Below are positions 4,600-22,038 of a DNA stretch of 53,302 bases, one piece after another. The DNA comes from Candidatus Iainarchaeum sp. (GTDB taxonomy: Archaea > Iainarchaeota > Iainarchaeia > Iainarchaeales > Iainarchaeaceae). Location of the stretch: positions 1-53,302 of the forward strand of contig JACQPB010000005.1 in assembly GCA_016202305.1 (NCBI GenBank), written 5' to 3'. The position numbers and the translations under genes were made by a program. Position 1 is the stretch's first letter. Every line of letters starts with the position of its first letter. The notes under the pieces were generated by a model, which had not been told where the DNA came from, searched no databases, and saw only the letters and a program-made list of their open reading frames with translations.

Positions 4600-5559
4600 A
4601 TGGACAAACTAGAAGTCGCGGGCCAGAGCAGGCAGAGCCAGCAGCACCTCTACGCGCCAGGCCACAGCGGCTGCCCGGGCTGCGGCCCAAGCAACGCTTT
4701 GATACAGGTATGCGACACTCTCGGGAAGGACATAATCGTCGTGAACGCGACAGGGTGCATGGAAATAACTTCATCGCAATACCCTCAGACCGCGTGGCGC
4801 GTCCCATACATACACTCGCTGTTCCAGAACGCGCCCGCAGTGGCCTCAGGAGTTGCGGCAGCGCTGAAGGCACAGGGCAACAACCACACGAAAGTAGTGG
4901 TGATTGCGGGCGACGGCAGCACTTATGACATCGGCTTCGGCTCCCTCAGCGGGATGCTTGAGAGGGGTGACAACGTGCTTTACGTCTGCTACGACAACCA
5001 GCTTTACGCGAATACCGGCGTGCAGAAATCCGGGGCGACGCCTTACGGCGCGGCCACCACTACCACTGTCGTGGGCTCGGTGCACAAGGGCAAGGAAACG
5101 GAGCGCAAGCCCATCAGCGAAATCGTCGCGGCGCACGGCGTGCAGTATGTCGCTTCCGCCTCGATAGCCTATTATGCGGATTTGCAGATGAAGCTGAAGA
5201 AGGCCAAGGCTGTCAACGGCCCGAGCTTCGTGGTCATTGACGCGCCTTGCTGCCTCGGCGCCGGCTTCGACGGCGGCATCACGATGAAGGTTTCCAAGAT
5301 GTCGGTGCAGTCGAGGCTATGGTTCCTTTACGAAATCGAGAACGGCCAGTACAAGCTCAATTTCAATCCCGCGAACCCGAAGCCCGTGAAGGAAGTCCTC
5401 GAACTGCAAAAAAGGTTCAAGCACCTTGATTCGGCGCAGACGGAGCACATACAGCGGCAGGCCAACCTCAATTACGAGGAGCTCGTGAGGAAGTGCTCTA
5501 TAGGTGCGCCCGTGCAGGGTCAGCAGCCTGCAAAGCCCGCAGAACAGCCGAAAGCGTAG
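4600..5559 (+). CDS. porB: Pyruvate:ferredoxin oxidoreductase beta subunit (TPP-binding)
   Basis: GHSGCPGCGPSNAL, GDGSTYDIGFGSLSG (TPP motif), YDNQLYANTGVQKSGATP. Confidence 0.93.
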   Translation: MDKLEVAGQSRQSQQHLYAPGHSGCPGCGPSNALIQVCDTLGKDIIVVNATGCMEITSSQYPQTAWRVPYIHSLFQNAPAVASGVAAALKAQGNNHTKVVVIAGDGSTYDIGFGSLSGMLERGDNVLYVCYDNQLYANTGVQKSGATPYGAATTTTVVGSVHKGKETERKPISEIVAAHGVQYVASASIAYYADLQMKLKKAKAVNGPSFVVIDAPCCLGAGFDGGITMKVSKMSVQSRLWFLYEIENGQYKLNFNPANPKPVKEVLELQKRFKHLDSAQTEHIQRQANLNYEELVRKCSIGAPVQGQQPAKPAEQPKA

Positions 5560-5616
5560 TTTTGCCGCTTTTTCGCTTTTGCCCTATTTTTTATTTCTTC
5601 TGCCCCCAATATATGC

Positions 5617-6051
5617 ATGCGCGAAAAGCACGGGGTCACGGCAGTCATCTTCGACGAGCGCGGGGGGATGCGCTATTTCCTGGTGCTACACAGGGTTCTC
5701 AACTGGAAGGGATGGGAATTCTGCAAGGGCGGCATTGACGTGGGAGAAATGCCGGAGCAGGCTGTGCTGCGCGAGGTGGACGAGGAAACAGGGCTGAGAA
5801 ATGTTTCAATCGTTTCCTCCCTTCCCCGGAAAGTTTCATGGACTCACAAGGGGATGAAGTACGTTTATACGCCATTCATAATACGGGGCGACATGTCCGA
5901 GAAGTTGGACCTGCTACAGCAGATTGTCGAGCATGACGATTACCGCTGGTTGGAAGAGGAGAGGGTGGAAGGCTTCCTGACTCACGGCGACAACAAGAAA
6001 ATTTTCCGTGAAGCCCTTGCCGTGCTCGCGGGGCATGGCATGAATGCGTGA
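5617..6051 (+). CDS. NUDIX hydrolase
   Basis: Nudix box [23 protein letters not shown]. Confidence 0.9.
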
Positions 6052-6068
6052 TTTTCTGCGTGGTCTGG

Positions 6069-6341
6069 ATGGAGCGCCTTGATGCGGTAGTGAAAGGCAG
6101 GGTGCAGGGCGTGGGCTTCAGGTTTTTTGTTCAAAGCCAGGCGACGCTCTTGGGCCTGCGGGGCTTCGTGCGCAACCTCCACGATGGCACAGTCGAGGTA
6201 GTGGCGGAAGGGGAGAAGGAAAAGCTCGCGAAGCTGCTTTCAGCGCTCGTGAAAGGCCATCCGCTTTCGAGAGTGGATGGGGTCGACAGCAACTGGGGCA
6301 CGGCCACAAGCGGGTTCAGGGATTTTTCTATCAGGCATTGA
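6069..6341 (+). CDS. acyP: Acylphosphatase
   Basis: [19 protein letters not shown]...[17 protein letters not shown]; internal ATG 6069 preferred over 6048. Confidence 0.9.
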
Positions 6342-6361
6342 CCGCATGGCACGAGCCTTTT

Positions 6362-6826
6362 TCATTCAACTGTGAGGATTGCCTCTTTCGTGTGTTCTTT
6401 CCCGTTTATTTCCGCCCTTGCAACAAGGACATACGTTCCGGGCAGCACATTGCCGACAGGGTTCACCATGAAGGCGACTTCGCGCGAAGTGCCCCTTGAC
6501 AAATCAGGGATTGTGCCGTTGAACTTGTCGCTGGAAGGGAAAACCCCGAGTTCGGTTTCCTCCTTCGCGGAAACTGACAGCTTCACGTCCTTCGCGTCCT
6601 TGTCAGAGGTGTTTGTCACGGTCACGGTCACTTTCGCTGTTTCCGAGCCTTTTACCGGGTTCTTCTCAAACCTGAACTCTATCGGCGAAGGCGAAAGCAG
6701 CTGGCCTCCGAACACGGCGATGCCGGCTATTATGAGAATGCCTGCAATGGCCATGGCAGCATAGGCCAGAATCTTCTGCTTTTCAGGGCCGAAGCCAATG
6801 CTTATTCCTGAATCGTAAATCCCCAT
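6362..6826 (-). CDS. Membrane-anchored extracytoplasmic Ig-like/CARDB-like domain protein
   Basis: N-terminal TM then beta-rich NPVKGSETAKVTVTVTNTSDKDAKDVKLSV. Confidence 0.6.
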   Translation of the reverse strand: MGIYDSGISIGFGPEKQKILAYAAMAIAGILIIAGIAVFGGQLLSPSPIEFRFEKNPVKGSETAKVTVTVTNTSDKDAKDVKLSVSAKEETELGVFPSSDKFNGTIPDLSRGTSREVAFMVNPVGNVLPGTYVLVARAEINGKEHTKEAILTVE

Positions 6827-11642: not shown

Positions 11643-13136
11643 ATGGATTTTACACAAATAGGCATTATTTTCGCCCTTTTCCTGATGCTGATTATCGGCC
11701 TGTATGCCGGAAGGAAAGTGAACGGAAAACTGGAGAATTACTTTGTCGCCGGCAGAAAACTGGCGGCCCCGGTAGTCGCGCTTGCGTTGGTTGGCCAGGC
11801 CATTGACGGCAATTCGACAATGGCAAATACAGGTCTGGCCTCGGAATTCGGGCTATGGGCCGGCGCAGTGCTCCCTATAGGGCTGGCTATATCCCTTCTG
11901 TTTTTGGGCAGGTTTTTTGCAAAGCCGCTCCATGAGATGAAGCTTCTCACCCTCGCGGATTTTTTCAGGCAAAAGTATGACAGGAAAATAGAGTTTATCG
12001 CTTCCATAATACTGCTTATCGGCTTCGGGTTCCTGCTTGCAGGCAACCTTGCTTCAATCGCCCTTCTCCTCGAAATCATTTTCCACGTCCAATATGGCAC
12101 GCTGGTGATAGCTCTCTCACTCTTCGTCTTGGCGTACATAATACTCGGCGGCATAATATCCGACATACTGACAGACACCCTGCAGGTCGGGTTTTTTGTG
12201 GTTGCCGTTGCACTCGCCTGCGGATTCCTTCTCTTCAGCAACAGCGGTCTCGGGGCATTCGCTTCGGAAAAAGGCCTGTCATTGATAAGTGTCACGCAGC
12301 TTCTCAACCCAGCGGAGGGCGCACTTGTCAACTGGGCAACGATCGTGGCGCTCGGCCTCGGGAATATCCTCGCAATTGATTTCGTCACGAGGATTCTATC
12401 AGCCAGGTCCCCGGAGGCAGCCAAGAACGGGTGCTATCTCGCCGCGGGAGGTACCATGCTGTTTGCGCTGCCATTTTCATTTTTCGCCATTTATGCGGCG
12501 GATTCCGGTATCAGCGCCGTTGAGGGCATACCTTTCTTTGTCACGTTTGCTGTGCAAACCTTTCCGCCCATCATCAACTTTATGCTTCTCGCTGCAATAG
12601 TCTCCATTGCCCTGTCAACGATTGACGGCGCAATGCTCAGCATGGGCAATATCTTCATGAGGAACGTGCTGGACATAAAGGAGGGCAGCGGCTCGGAGGA
12701 TGCGATGCTCTATTACGCAAGGATTTCGATTTTGCCGATAACCGCAGCTGCGATGCTCTTCGCGCTTCTCTTCCCGAATCCCGGCATAATGCTCACTGTT
12801 GCCTTCGATGTGCTGTTCGCCTCATGTCTCGTGCCTTTCGTGGCACCTTTTTTCGTGAAAAGGCCGAGCATCAATGCCGCGCTTGCAGCAATAATAGCCG
12901 GGGGAGTTGTCAGAATAGTTTTTGCGGTACTCACACCAACAACATTCGGCGTGGAAAACACTTTCTTCTATCTGGAAAACACTTTTATAACCGCTGAAAT
13001 GGACGGCCTCGGCACAATAATTTCCCCGATGGTTTCACTCGCGGCATTCGCTTTTGTCACATGGAGGGAAAATACAAAAAAGGTGACAGGTAATAGGCTG
13101 CTTTCCGGCCTACAGAAATTGTTTGATTTTTCGTGA
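11643..13136 (+). CDS. Sodium:solute symporter (SSS) family transporter
   Basis: AGRKVNGKLENYFVAGRKL, GQAIDGNSTMANTG, SIALSTIDGAMLSMGNIFMRNV; about 13 TM segments. Confidence 0.85.
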   Translation: MDFTQIGIIFALFLMLIIGLYAGRKVNGKLENYFVAGRKLAAPVVALALVGQAIDGNSTMANTGLASEFGLWAGAVLPIGLAISLLFLGRFFAKPLHEMKLLTLADFFRQKYDRKIEFIASIILLIGFGFLLAGNLASIALLLEIIFHVQYGTLVIALSLFVLAYIILGGIISDILTDTLQVGFFVVAVALACGFLLFSNSGLGAFASEKGLSLISVTQLLNPAEGALVNWATIVALGLGNILAIDFVTRILSARSPEAAKNGCYLAAGGTMLFALPFSFFAIYAADSGISAVEGIPFFVTFAVQTFPPIINFMLLAAIVSIALSTIDGAMLSMGNIFMRNVLDIKEGSGSEDAMLYYARISILPITAAAMLFALLFPNPGIMLTVAFDVLFASCLVPFVAPFFVKRPSINAALAAIIAGGVVRIVFAVLTPTTFGVENTFFYLENTFITAEMDGLGTIISPMVSLAAFAFVTWRENTKKVTGNRLLSGLQKLFDFS

Positions 13137-13144
13137 GTGGTCAT

Positions 13145-13588
13145 ATGAACGAAACCAAAAAGTCGCTGAGTTTTTCGCCGGAGCAGGCCAACATGCTCAA
13201 GCAAAACATAATCAAGAATGTGACTGCAGTGCTCGTGAGCATTGTCTTTGGCATATGGGTGTTCCCGCGCGTGCAGGCCGTTGACCCGGACTCGCTGATT
13301 AATGCGTTCTTTTTCCTGAGCATTTTCCCGCTGGGCGCAATGTTCGCCTATTTTGCATTCAATTACGGCGACACAAGGATCAGCATACTCATACACAGGG
13401 TATTTGCCGACGTTTCCTCGTTCATATTCCTCATCGTGATTTTCTGCTCATTAACGTTCGCCACCGTGCTTGGCATAATAGCTTATCCATCTTTCACGTT
13501 CCCCTTTATGGCGCTCTCGGCATTCCTGATACTCGGCTGCGTGGCCTATGACTTCTGGCAGTTCATGCTTGCGATAACCACGAAATAG
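13145..13588 (+). CDS. Hypothetical membrane protein, probable operon partner of the symporter
   Basis: TM-rich ORF directly downstream; ATG 13145. Confidence 0.6.
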   Translation: MNETKKSLSFSPEQANMLKQNIIKNVTAVLVSIVFGIWVFPRVQAVDPDSLINAFFFLSIFPLGAMFAYFAFNYGDTRISILIHRVFADVSSFIFLIVIFCSLTFATVLGIIAYPSFTFPFMALSAFLILGCVAYDFWQFMLAITTK

Positions 13589-13603
13589 GCGGATAAGGGC
13601 AGG

Positions 13604-14383
13604 TTATGGTTTTTTCGCGCTCAGGACAAAGAACTCTCCGTGGTCAGTGACTTCTACATGGAAGCCTTCCTGCAGGAGAAGCTTTCTCATCGGCTCGGGG
13701 TCAACGGTTTCGAGGCTCGCAAGCTCAGGGTCGCGCGCAAGCAGTGATTCGACCTCTCGGGTTATGTCTAGAACATCGGCCTGAAATGCTTTTGGATTTC
13801 CCATCAGCATTCCGCTTCGGATAAGGGCTTTTCTATCATTACGCATCGGCAGGTAAGTAGCTACCGTCTTTCTCCTGAATTCCTCCGGACTGACTTTTCG
13901 GTAATCAACAATCAGTATGGCATCGGCCATTCGCGCTATTTTCCTGAGGGTGCCAATCCGCCTATGTGGCTCTACATGGCCAAACACCTCGGCAGCCACG
14001 GCGAGGGAGATTTTTCCCGCATGAAAGCTTGGAGGGTTCCTTATGTCGCCATGCAGGACTTCGGCTGTCGGATGGGCTGCTCTCAGGCCCTGGACGATTT
14101 TGGGGCTTTGGTCCAGAAAAATCCTTTCCCTGAAAGGCAAATTGTGTATCAGGGGCGAGGTACCGGGCCCGATTTCCAGTGCTACCGCATTCCCTGGTTC
14201 AGGCACAAGGGCCTTTATCCTCGCCGCGAGCAATTCCCGGTTTTGCCGGGTTTCCTTTACAAATGATTGGAGCCTGTCACCTTCCACATAATGGCCCCCG
14301 GAAAACCATTTTCTTGCTTCAGGGCGCTTCAGGATTTCTCTTTTGCCGGGCCGTTTCACAATAATCCTAATCTTGGAACACAT
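13604..14383 (-). CDS. SAM-dependent methyltransferase
   Basis: AVALEIGPGTSPL... LDQSPKIVQGLRAAHPTAEVLHGDIRNP. Confidence 0.7.
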   Translation of the reverse strand: MCSKIRIIVKRPGKREILKRPEARKWFSGGHYVEGDRLQSFVKETRQNRELLAARIKALVPEPGNAVALEIGPGTSPLIHNLPFRERIFLDQSPKIVQGLRAAHPTAEVLHGDIRNPPSFHAGKISLAVAAEVFGHVEPHRRIGTLRKIARMADAILIVDYRKVSPEEFRRKTVATYLPMRNDRKALIRSGMLMGNPKAFQADVLDITREVESLLARDPELASLETVDPEPMRKLLLQEGFHVEVTDHGEFFVLSAKKP

Positions 14384-18728: not shown

Positions 18729-19511
18729 ATGAAAGCTATTGAAGAGGACGACATGGAGCTGCTCCAATCAGGGGAATCTGCCGCTGATTCAATGGTGGCC
18801 CTGCCTGACAAGGTTGACCTCGTGGACCTCATAGAGCAGCCCGCGTGGAAGACCATCCTCATAGAGCTCGTGAAGACCGAGCGCATGGACCCCTGGGAAA
18901 TAGACATCGCCGACCTGGCTAGCAAGTACCTCAAGAAAATCAATGCCCTGACAGGCAACGACCTCAGGCTTCCCGCAAACGCGATTCTCGCATCAGCCAT
19001 ACTCCTCAAGTTCAAGGCCAACGTGCTGCGCATAAGCGAGATTGAAGACGAGGAGGAATTCCTCGAAAAGCAAAAGCAGATGAGTGTTGAGGAGAGGGCG
19101 GAATTCGAGGCCATGCTGCCAGACCTGAAGAACATAAGGAAGATAAAGGAGGGCAAGGTCTCGCTCGACGAGCTTGTGCTCAGCATCGAAAAAATGCTCA
19201 ACAGCGCCAAGAAGACAAAGGACAGGAACATACTGCGCGAGCGCACGAAGTTCATAATTCCCGCGCACGACTTCGACATAGACAAGGCCATGGAGAAAGT
19301 CTACAAGTCAATAACCAAGGCAGCGGACTCCCAGGGCCTCGTGCTTTTCTCTAGGCTGGTGAAGGAAAGCGATACGAACGAAGGCATCGTGCGCACATTC
19401 ATACCGTGCCTCTTCCTGACCAACAAGGGCCGCATAAACATGTGGCAGGACGTTTTCTTCGGCGAAATTTTCCTGAGTCTGAATGCCGGAAATCAGGCGG
19501 AAAAAAGCTGA
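18729..19511 (+). CDS. scpA: Segregation and condensation protein A
   Basis: WEIDIADLASKYLKKI, LPANAILASAILLKFKANVL, C-terminal wHTH ending QDVFFGEIFLSLN. Confidence 0.88.
   Translation: MKAIEEDDMELLQSGESAADSMVALPDKVDLVDLIEQPAWKTILIELVKTERMDPWEIDIADLASKYLKKINALTGNDLRLPANAILASAILLKFKANVLRISEIEDEEEFLEKQKQMSVEERAEFEAMLPDLKNIRKIKEGKVSLDELVLSIEKMLNSAKKTKDRNILRERTKFIIPAHDFDIDKAMEKVYKSITKAADSQGLVLFSRLVKESDTNEGIVRTFIPCLFLTNKGRINMWQDVFFGEIFLSLNAGNQAEKS
19449..19511 (+). repeat. scpA 3'-end repeat, copy 1
   Basis: 63 nt; hand alignment gives 51/63 identical to 21449-21511. Confidence 0.8.
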
Positions 19512-19521
19512 TTTTATAATT

Positions 19522-19950
19522 TCATTTTTTCTTGAACAATTCTTTTTCGTATTGTGCAAGCCATTTTGCTACAAGTTTAAGCGCTTCTGTTTGCCTCATC
19601 CAGCTTGCATAGCTTTCCCCGTATTTTGTTTTTGAGTAGTGCCTGGATTTAGTGAAAAGAAAATTTTCTTTCCAAAGTTCCTTTTTGCTTTCAGCTATTT
19701 CCAGTGTGGCATCCTGCCATCTTGCCCTGAAATAGAAATGCTTTCGGAATATTGTTCCTTCTATTTGGACGGGCGCAGCAAAGCATGTTGTTTTGAGTTT
19801 AAGTGGCGAGAGGTAATCCTGCAGCGCTTTGTTTTTTTGAAACGCCTTGGAAATTTCTTTGAGCTTCTTTAGCCTTTGTTTTTTCGAGAGAGCTTTTTTT
19901 GCCATTACAAATTTTGAATGGCTGCTTTTAAATTCATATATTTTGGACAA
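19522..19950 (-). CDS. Hypothetical Lys-rich protein (AT-rich)
   Basis: 142-aa ORF inside the segment bounded by the two scpA ends. Confidence 0.55.
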   Translation of the reverse strand: MSKIYEFKSSHSKFVMAKKALSKKQRLKKLKEISKAFQKNKALQDYLSPLKLKTTCFAAPVQIEGTIFRKHFYFRARWQDATLEIAESKKELWKENFLFTKSRHYSKTKYGESYASWMRQTEALKLVAKWLAQYEKELFKKK

Positions 19951-19970
19951 TGACTAATAAACTTTGTAAC

Positions 19971-19996
19971 TTCATTTGCTGTTATTTCATTTGCTG
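19971..19996. repeat. Short direct repeat TTCATTTGCTG x2
   Basis: TTCATTTGCTG at 19971-19981 and 19986-19996. Confidence 0.7.
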
Positions 19997-20032
19997 GCCT
20001 GTTTTTTTTCTATTGAGCAATAATATGGTTTA

Positions 20033-20050
20033 TGCTCATTATAATGAGCA
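20033..20050. promoter_or_regulatory. 18-bp perfect palindrome TGCTCATTATAATGAGCA, operator candidate
   Basis: Self-complementary; in the divergent intergenic region upstream of the AAA ATPase. Confidence 0.5.
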
Positions 20051-20132
20051 AACCCGCCAAAATTGCTGGAAAAGCACCATTTAATCACTCATAGTAAACA
20101 TTTTTATATACTTTTGTTTAGTATATTTTTCT

Positions 20133-21380
20133 ATGTTGTCAGATGTGCTTGTTTTGCAAAAGCGTGAATTGGAAGCGCGCCTTGCAGAGCGGTTTATTGA
20201 AAGGGATGCAAAGCTGCGGAATGCAGCCAGTGACACGATAAAAGTCATTATCGGGCCGCGCAGGGCGGGGAAGTCGTTTTTTGCAATTCATGAATTGCGA
20301 AAATTGGGCTCATTCGGATATGTCAATTTTGATGATGAGCAACTGGCAAAAGTGGAGGATTTCAACGAAGTTCTGGCAGCTATAGACAGCCTGTATGGCT
20401 CGCCGCGCTTCCTGCTGCTTGACGAGGTCCAGAATTTCCCAAAGTGGGAACTGCTTGCAAACAGGCTCCAGCGGCAGGGGCGCAACCTTTTCCTGACGGG
20501 CAGCAATTCGAACCTTTTGAGTGCGGAACTTGCAACGCACCTGACCGGGAGGCACACCTTGGCTTATGTGTTCCCGTTCTCTTTCAAAGAATTTTTGGCT
20601 TTGGAAAAAAAAGAACTGACTTCTGCTGAAACCAAGCAGAAATTGCTTGATTTTGTGACTTACGGGGGCTTTCCAGAACCGCTTGTCAAGAAAATGGATT
20701 ATGCCGATTATGTGTCAAGGCTCTTCGATAACATCATGTACAAGGACATAATTTCGCGCTACAAACTCCGGCGCATAAAGACCGTGCGGGAAATAGCGCA
20801 GATTCTTTTTTCGAACGTCACAAAGGAATTTTCCTACAACCAGCTGAAAAACTCGGTCCAGAAAACAAGCGTAGTAACGCTCCAACGGTTTATTTCATAT
20901 CTTGAGGAAGCCTTTGTTTTTTTCGAGATGCCGCGCTTTTCTTTCAAGGCAAAAGAGCAGGCGAAGTACAACAAGAAGATATACTGCTTTGACAACGGCT
21001 ATATTTTTGCCAAGGCATTCAAAACAAGCCCTGATTGGGGCGGGTTATTTGAAAATGCCGTGGCCATCGAATTAAAGAAAGGGGAAATTGAGCACGAGCA
21101 CAAGGTATTCTACTGGAAAAATGCGCAAAACCACGAGGTCGATTTTGCCATCCAAAAAGACCGGAAAATCAGTCGGCTAATCCAAGTGTGCTTTGACCCA
21201 ACGGACCCGAAAACAAAAAAACGCGAGGAACGCGCATTGCTAAGGGCAAGCCATGAACTGAACTGCCAAAACCTTTTAGTGCTGACCAATGACTACGAGG
21301 CAACCCAGAAAACGGAATGGTTCGGGCTAAAAGGCACAGTAAAATACAAGCCCCTATGGAAATGGCTGCTCGAAAACTGA
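20133..21380 (+). CDS. AAA/P-loop ATPase with DUF4143-like C-terminus
   Basis: Walker A GPRRAGKSFF, Walker B FLLLDEVQNFPKWE, LTGSNSNLL, SFKEFLAL, nuclease-like tail HKVFYWKNAQNHEVDFAI. Confidence 0.88.
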   Translation: MLSDVLVLQKRELEARLAERFIERDAKLRNAASDTIKVIIGPRRAGKSFFAIHELRKLGSFGYVNFDDEQLAKVEDFNEVLAAIDSLYGSPRFLLLDEVQNFPKWELLANRLQRQGRNLFLTGSNSNLLSAELATHLTGRHTLAYVFPFSFKEFLALEKKELTSAETKQKLLDFVTYGGFPEPLVKKMDYADYVSRLFDNIMYKDIISRYKLRRIKTVREIAQILFSNVTKEFSYNQLKNSVQKTSVVTLQRFISYLEEAFVFFEMPRFSFKAKEQAKYNKKIYCFDNGYIFAKAFKTSPDWGGLFENAVAIELKKGEIEHEHKVFYWKNAQNHEVDFAIQKDRKISRLIQVCFDPTDPKTKKREERALLRASHELNCQNLLVLTNDYEATQKTEWFGLKGTVKYKPLWKWLLEN

Positions 21381-21398
21381 AAGTGGCAGGAAGTATTC

Positions 21399-21511
21399 AT
21401 CAGGGCAATCTTTGTTGTGGCATATGGGCCGACAAATACTCCCCAAGAGACGTGTTCTTCAGCGAGATATTCTTGAGTCTGAACGCTGAAAACCGGGCGG
21501 AAAATGGCTGA
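21399..21511 (+). pseudogene. Remnant second scpA 3' end
   Basis: 21449-21511 encodes [20 protein letters not shown], matching DVFFGEIFLSLNAGNQAEKS* of ScpA; weaker similarity upstream in a shifted frame (FIRAIFVVAYGPTN vs FIPCLFLTNKGRIN). Confidence 0.7.
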
Positions 21512-21582
21512 CAGCCAACTGCTGCAATGTGCGGTTTCCGCCTTGCAGAATGCCGGCTCAGGAAAAAAGTTTATATCCTGAT

Positions 21583-22038
21583 ATGCGGCAATCACTACTT
21601 TATTGGCGGGGTGTTTTCTTGAAAAACGATGCAAATGAAAAGTGGAAGGCCAAGCTCACCCCTCAGCAGTACAATGTTTGCAGGCTTGGCGGCACCGAAG
21701 CTCCTTTCACCGGCAAGTATGTGCACCACAAGGAAACCGGAATGTATTCATGTGTTGCTTGCGGAAACGAGTTATTCGACTCCGGGACAAAATTCGATTC
21801 CGGCACCGGGTGGCCCAGCTTCTATGACGTTGCGGCCAGAGGCGGGGTGAGGCTGCAGGATGATGGCAGCCATGGCATGCACAGGATTGAGGCGGTTTGC
21901 TCGAAGTGCGGCTCGCACCTCGGCCATGTTTTCGATGATGGACCAGGCCCTACGGGGAAGAGATACTGCATAAATTCAGCCGCGCTTGACTTCAAACTCA
22001 GCGAAAACAGGGGCAAAAGGCCTGCGGGAAACGATTAA
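21583..22038 (+). CDS. msrB: Peptide-methionine (R)-S-oxide reductase
   Basis: [41 protein letters not shown]. Confidence 0.94.

Follow-up and report, generated by a model that had tools for sequence, protein, structure and literature searches.

Integrative elements often enter genes at their 3′ ends and regenerate the ends they enter. The SCC/SCCmec elements, for example, enter the 3′ end of the conserved housekeeping gene rlmH (orfX), are flanked by direct repeats in which the gene end is included, and can stack as composite islands. An SCC-related island outside rlmH has also been described (PMC10581047). At a smaller scale, the dif (pdif) modules of Acinetobacter are recombinase-less units, often with toxin-antitoxin genes, that lie between short flanking sites and are attributed to host Xer (PMC13141974, PMC6449649), and LME-1 of Legionella is an IMEX element that borrows the host Xer/dif system (PMC9765430). 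Among archaea, integrons have been described, Nanoarchaeota included (PMC9668308), and attachment sites inside protein-coding genes are known (review PMC8371274). The segment described here, located directly behind the kleisin gene scpA of a Candidatus Iainarchaeum genome, very probably belongs to a family of small integrative gene cassettes.

The window, as we call the whole stretch of 53,302 nucleotides analysed (contig JACQPB010000005.1), contains scpA followed by a second copy of its 3′ end, as noticed in a sequence-only reading of this DNA. The segments 19449-19511 and 21449-21511 are identical at 51/63 positions (81%) in a gapless alignment, and both read in frame to a stop, copy 1 as DVFFGEIFLSLNAGNQAEKS. 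In the shuffling control proposed with that reading, 300 dinucleotide shuffles of the downstream 3 kb gave at most 34/63, and the next-best match to the scpA end elsewhere in the window was 32/63. Orthologues of scpA are present in 73 of 87 genomes of the phylum, and their alignment is conserved up to about residue 251-256, which identifies copy 1 as the true scpA end; within the family, ScpA ends in ...INMWQ[DE]xFFGEIF[LI]S. The roughly 2 kb between the copies hold the hypothetical gene (minus strand) and the DUF4143-type ATPase gene (plus strand) that had been read there, and no integrase. The weak similarity upstream of copy 2, which had been taken for decayed scpA, does not reflect scpA alone: 21381-21492 forms a conserved cassette right end, with 85-87% identity to segments at two further loci of this genome. 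Within it, at 21383-21412 and ~70 nt before the right core, the scpA end is resembled a second time, though more poorly (WQEVFIRAIFVV); this stretch is also kept in the C22 and C16 cassettes, with similar placement in the relative G003. The features are collected in Table 1.

Table 1. Features of the scpA locus in the window and cassettes elsewhere in the same genome
Feature	Position	Strand	Remarks
scpA (kleisin)	18729..19511	+	Pfam SMC_ScpA 2.7e-12; 3′ end is the insertion site; FFGEIF codons from 19455, short tail after
Cassette, core to core	19455..21454	+	2000 bp
Left core TTCTTCGGCGAAATTTTCCT	19455..19474	+	0 mismatches to TTYTTCGGCGARRTNTTYNT; alignment of 18 left ends
scpA tail LSLNAGNQAEKS, then stop	19475..19511	+	putatively cassette-supplied; near-identical tail opens an AbiE cassette (L005, 7458)
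142-aa ORF (cargo)	19522..19950	-	from the ORF list; no Pfam or PADLOC match
415-aa AAA_14/DUF4143 ATPase (cargo)	20133..21380	+	Pfam 6.9e-29 and 8.3e-22; PADLOC defence candidate PDC-S01, PDLC04787 1.9e-99
Right-end arm, class B (AAGTGGCAGGAAGTATTCATCAGGGCAATCTTTGTTGTGGCATATG...)	21381..21454	+	87% / 85% identical at C22:37555-37666 / C16:38525-38624, same genome
Right core TTCTTCAGCGAGATATTCTT	21455..21474	+	1 mismatch to the core pattern
Second scpA tail	21475..21511	+	putative displaced older tail; resembles the G003 displaced tail and the C22 cassette tail
msrB-like gene	21529..22038	+	longest ORF, start codon provisional; first gene past the cassette; name from the sequence-only reading
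C22 cassette			cargo AbiEi/AbiEii; between sortase-like gene and secF
C16 cassette			cargo 534-aa putative lipoprotein; between epimerase gene and GGGPS
C3 + C5 cassette			DUF1428-like gene split into two halves at the contig ends; flanked by secY and DUF106-like gene

The genome of the window (G000; 1.04 Mb, 56 contigs, 80% complete) carries four cassettes of ~1.8-2.2 kb with eight cores, which have related ends and unrelated cargo. Searching it with the window's right end (21381-21492) returned the C22 and C16 segments listed in the table, and the left end matched C22:35448-35515 and, more weakly, C16:40306, C3:22080 and C5:6716. Contigs C3 and C5 are probably adjacent, in which case one cassette spans both contig ends. 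Gene names lacking a Pfam match were assigned from reading the protein sequences. The remaining near-matches to the core that were checked in this genome were background, and the other weak core matches inspected in G000, G001 and G004 lacked a tail or arm of the cassette type.

Related Diapherotrites MAGs carry tandem arrays of such units after scpA. A pattern scan of named genomes gave matches in PCWY01000077.1 (G004), JANLGZ010000047.1 (G002) and JANLHD010000032.1 (G005), all MAG contigs. The array cassettes measure 0.56-1.9 kb and hold mostly toxin-antitoxin genes; each opens with a copy of the scpA end (FFGE[IV]F, short tail, stop) and most close with a conserved arm and the core TTYTTCGGCGARRTNTTY. 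G004 has six cores from scpA onward, spaced 0.56-1.9 kb apart, and a diverged seventh at about 7577 with a family-type tail (FSEIFLSLNKTHQVDN). G002 has four cores starting at scpA, plus two cassettes between secF and a sortase-like gene, and G005 has a single cassette immediately 3′ of nadE. Homologous cassettes occupy different loci in different genera: the first G004 cassette is 82% identical over 758 nt to the nadE cassette of G005, and the second is 85% identical over 613 nt to the third of G002, both of the latter pair residing in scpA arrays. The first G004 cassette (L058, 1960-3130) looks composite: its homologue in G005 lacks the initial ~400 nt, which hold a 95-aa ORF.

In G003 a single cassette is found at scpA, and its DUF4143 ATPase is 31% identical to that of the window. 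Here scpA ends in SVNKLPDS, and a family-type tail (SLNAENQAENT) is located 2.2 kb downstream, behind the cassette. A truncated transposase-like ORF (DDE type, by eye) lies within the same cassette, beside the tail (L054, 3180-3623, minus strand). Second scpA tails were also seen 2.7 kb downstream in G036, with a Fic protein and an unassigned protein between, and 1.6 kb downstream in G019, with a PEP-utilizing-type enzyme (by eye) between. In most of the about 60 genomes surveyed there was no clear second tail, several tails being missed by the automatic search or lying too near a contig end, and an integrase was not seen at any scpA end.

Occupied and empty forms of the target can be compared directly in MAG G027, from outside the family of the window, which has two scpA versions. 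The version on C22 is insert-free; on C21, ~2.1 kb of cargo separates WFGEIFI from a second WFGEIFISVIKND, past which the flank is 79% identical to the empty C22 flank; the core common to the pair is only about 21 bp. The two scpA versions (L060, L066) are 79-89% identical within one MAG, which may represent mixed strains or a binning mixture. Each secondary locus of G000 likewise has insert-free counterparts: secY and the DUF106-like gene are adjacent in G001-G005, GGGPS and the epimerase gene have no insert between them in G002, G004 and G005, and the same is true of the sortase-like gene and secF in G004, G005 and also G003, where they are ~110 bp apart. The same-genus relative G001 has an insert of about 1.2 kb between GGGPS and the epimerase gene (L203, C19, 793-2047), at the locus of the G000 lipoprotein cassette; it was considered as a cassette and set aside, the core being absent.

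The sequence-only reading had suggested looking for an empty site where scpA runs directly into msrB. Insert-free sites do exist, on C22 of G027 and, in relatives, at the three non-scpA loci. The exact scpA-msrB junction was not found because msrB does not adjoin scpA in relatives, where its orthologues have other locations. The first proposal of that reading, that a cassette entered scpA and supplied a replacement 3′ end, is supported by the cassettes at other loci, the arrays of relatives, G027, the insert-free loci and G003. These loci display the features of gene-end integration, namely direct repeats of the gene end at the boundaries, empty sites, and a target whose frame is kept and whose end is gained from the element. 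Given that both tails in the window are of the family type, the polarity rests on G003 and G027, which suggest that the left tail is the new one and the right tail the old one.

The attachment site appears to be composed of an arm, a core and a tail. The arm TATTCTATAATAACRCTATAAG and the core are conserved at right ends across three genera, and class A right ends (TTTCAAAAAATTTAATTTYY...TATTCTATAATAACRCTATAAG before the core) occur in G002, G004 and G005, with a shorter version on C5 of G000. All 18 left ends aligned, five of them real scpA ends, read FF[GRC][EG][IV][FY], and 17 of the 18 reach an in-frame stop within 11-24 codons; a few are irregular, among them one copy from G002 with 68 codons before the stop. 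Entropy by codon position is 0.64/0.32/1.03, and such variation, strongest at third positions, is expected if each cassette at times supplied the ScpA end. At four of the five secondary sites (C22, C16, C3 and G002 secF) the sequence immediately preceding the core (14 nt) resembles TGTGGCAGGAAG of scpA (p <=0.002 against G000 scpA), and at nadE the resemblance is seen only with a shift. The secondary sites also have nearly complete cores on both sides, implying that they were already strongly scpA-like or had been seeded by earlier insertions. A minimal core of 9 bp had seemed possible at the G002 secF site, but the variant is found again within the same array and the idea was abandoned. In a test for dif-like symmetry the best mean was 4.9/11 arm matches, against 3.4-4.3 in shuffles and far below a dif-like palindrome; compared with typical tyrosine-recombinase sites, any inverted repeat is weak at best. 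In two complete relatives (G020, G010), sampled GC skew and the positions of orc1/cdc6 spoke neither for nor against scpA marking the terminus or a chromosomal dif.

None of the cassette ORFs examined encodes an integrase, and the tyrosine recombinases of the genomes are on other contigs. Serine recombinases (PF00239) were not detected in the six family genomes searched, compared with 10 of 14 control genomes that were positive. As an order-wide rule, there is one strong XerA-type protein per genome, and XerA is a candidate, unproven and yet the leading one, for a recombinase acting in trans, because no other tyrosine recombinase was found in the array-bearing G002 (92% complete) or in G005. 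The G002 protein scores 274.8 with the XerA_Arch model (cut-off 220) and 200.9 with TIGR02249 (cut-off 265); the G004 protein likewise passes the archaeal XerA model and misses the integron-integrase cut-off. In G000 (80% complete) xerA was not detected, and two other tyrosine integrases were. A tyrosine integrase of ~406 aa in G000 (L061 on C7, 9554-10774, minus strand) lies about 3 kb after Cas1-like and Cas4-like genes (4701-5690 and 5973-6572, by eye), and a TnpB/OrfB-like gene is found in the same region (12873-14219).

The combined data suggest a model in which a family of small integrative cassettes without a recombinase of their own docks at the 3′ end of scpA, replaces its tail and builds arrays, an explanation that we regard as very likely. 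A circular cassette would hold one site, made up of the arm P, the ~20-bp core and, as P′, a short stop-terminated tail resembling that of scpA. A recombinase acting in trans would join this core to the matching core of scpA at the FFGEIF codons. Since the crossover would occur inside the core, scpA would stay in frame and gain the cassette tail, and the old tail would come to lie downstream, after the cassette. Further insertions at cores linked to scpA would then produce arrays, with occasional entry into other gene ends that resemble the scpA end. Within this model, the circle itself, the position of the crossover, the sequence in which cassettes arrived and the identity of the recombinase are inferred. 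Several observations speak against it, namely the nearly complete cores on both sides of secondary sites, the weakness of the inverted repeat, the missing xerA in G000 alongside its other tyrosine integrases, and the few irregular left ends. The tail change spares the conserved last strand of ScpA and, from what is known of kleisin C-terminal domains, is therefore probably tolerated. A more tentative extension, which we consider possible rather than probable, is a cassette-capture system of the Diapherotrites, integron-like and separately arisen, in which the scpA end serves as docking platform, XerA or another enzyme in trans loads the cassettes, and each cassette rewrites the kleisin C-terminus.

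As its alternative, the sequence-only reading had offered that scpA was duplicated in tandem and that the copy decayed around the unrelated genes. The in-frame, scpA-end-like copy 2 and the scpA-like sequence before it would fit such an origin. Nonetheless, related ends flank unrelated cargo at three loci where relatives have no scpA, and the duplicate is therefore rejected as a very remote prospect; only the last ~20 scpA codons are ever found, and relatives repeat just that piece between cassettes. Homologous recombination between dispersed repeats, with the scpA end as the longest common repeat and no site-specific recombinase, would account for the 60-110 bp repeats common to several loci, the lack of a dedicated recombinase linked to the cassettes, and the near-complete cores at secondary sites, which fit an exchange between pre-existing repeats. 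We nevertheless consider it improbable, as the insertions always break at the same core, the G027 pair shares just this short core, homologous cassettes occur at unrelated loci, and a coding constraint is kept in the tail.

The tandem single-function cassettes, mostly toxin-antitoxin, with their conserved right ends, together with the presence of integrons in archaea, raise the possibility of an integron or of a CALIN, an attC cluster lacking an integrase. The probability of this reading is minimal, given that the RYYYAAC/GTTRRRY pair occurs in 0/12 right ends on either strand, that the right ends fold no better than shuffles (z -0.8 to 0.3), that the XerA proteins fall below the integron-integrase cut-off (200 vs 265), and that the anchor is scpA, not an attI beside intI. 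The cassettes may instead travel with a larger autonomous element (provirus or plasmid) that integrates at scpA and whose own integrase moves them in trans, a reading that differs from the preferred one in the source of the recombinase and is otherwise compatible with it. Most integrative elements work this way, and tyrosine integrases of ~400 aa are present in G000 and other genomes. We still deem such a carrier unlikely: there was no core in the stretches examined around the three G000 tyrosine integrase loci, IMG/VR had no contig bearing a class A end, ScpA or the 119-aa toxin, and the survey of scpA ends described above revealed neither an extra tail in most genomes nor an integrase.

The cargo recognized by PADLOC comprises PDC-S01 ATPases and AbiE, and other cassettes carry PemK/MazF-like toxins with an RHH protein, HicA, several weak ParE/YoeB-like toxins and Fic; the remainder is metabolic or has no assigned function. 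In DPANN archaea, CRISPR-Cas and restriction systems are scarce, and AbiE, SoFic and several PDCs and candidate systems are enriched (PMC12988326). As AbiE, Fic and PDC-S01 are among the cargo, the cassettes are a possible route by which DPANN-enriched defence genes spread.

The cassettes work like SCC elements at rlmH, integrons and pdif modules, yet none of the enzyme or site characteristics of these systems that were tested was clearly present. With SCC they share entry at a gene 3′ end, direct repeats of the gene end and stacking; SCC elements, in contrast, encode their own Ccr serine recombinases and span tens of kb, whereas the scpA cassettes are 0.56-2.7 kb with no recombinase seen. Like integrons, including archaeal integrons and CALINs (PMC9668308), they form arrays of small cassettes with a conserved 3′ site, adaptive cargo and a recombinase that would act in trans, but the scpA arrays are without attC motifs or folds, IntI (in incomplete MAGs) or attI, and the platform is the coding end of scpA. 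The pdif modules are similarly small, recombinase-less, often toxin-antitoxin-bearing and located between short sites. The scpA core differs from theirs in having no clear 11-6-11 inverted repeat, array repeats are always in the same orientation, and the end of a host gene is replaced. Borrowing of host Xer, as in IMEX elements, is the mechanism favoured for the scpA cassettes, which differ in targeting a protein-coding end. The archaeal attachment sites in protein-coding genes treated in PMC8371274 belong to single viruses or elements, and that treatment makes no mention of recombinase-less cassette arrays. A limited, non-exhaustive literature search found no report of scpA as a cassette platform. 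Arrays that are tied to the end of a housekeeping gene and have no recombinase of their own make the loading of cassettes by XerA directly testable, and the short, portable core could become a genetic tool for archaea.
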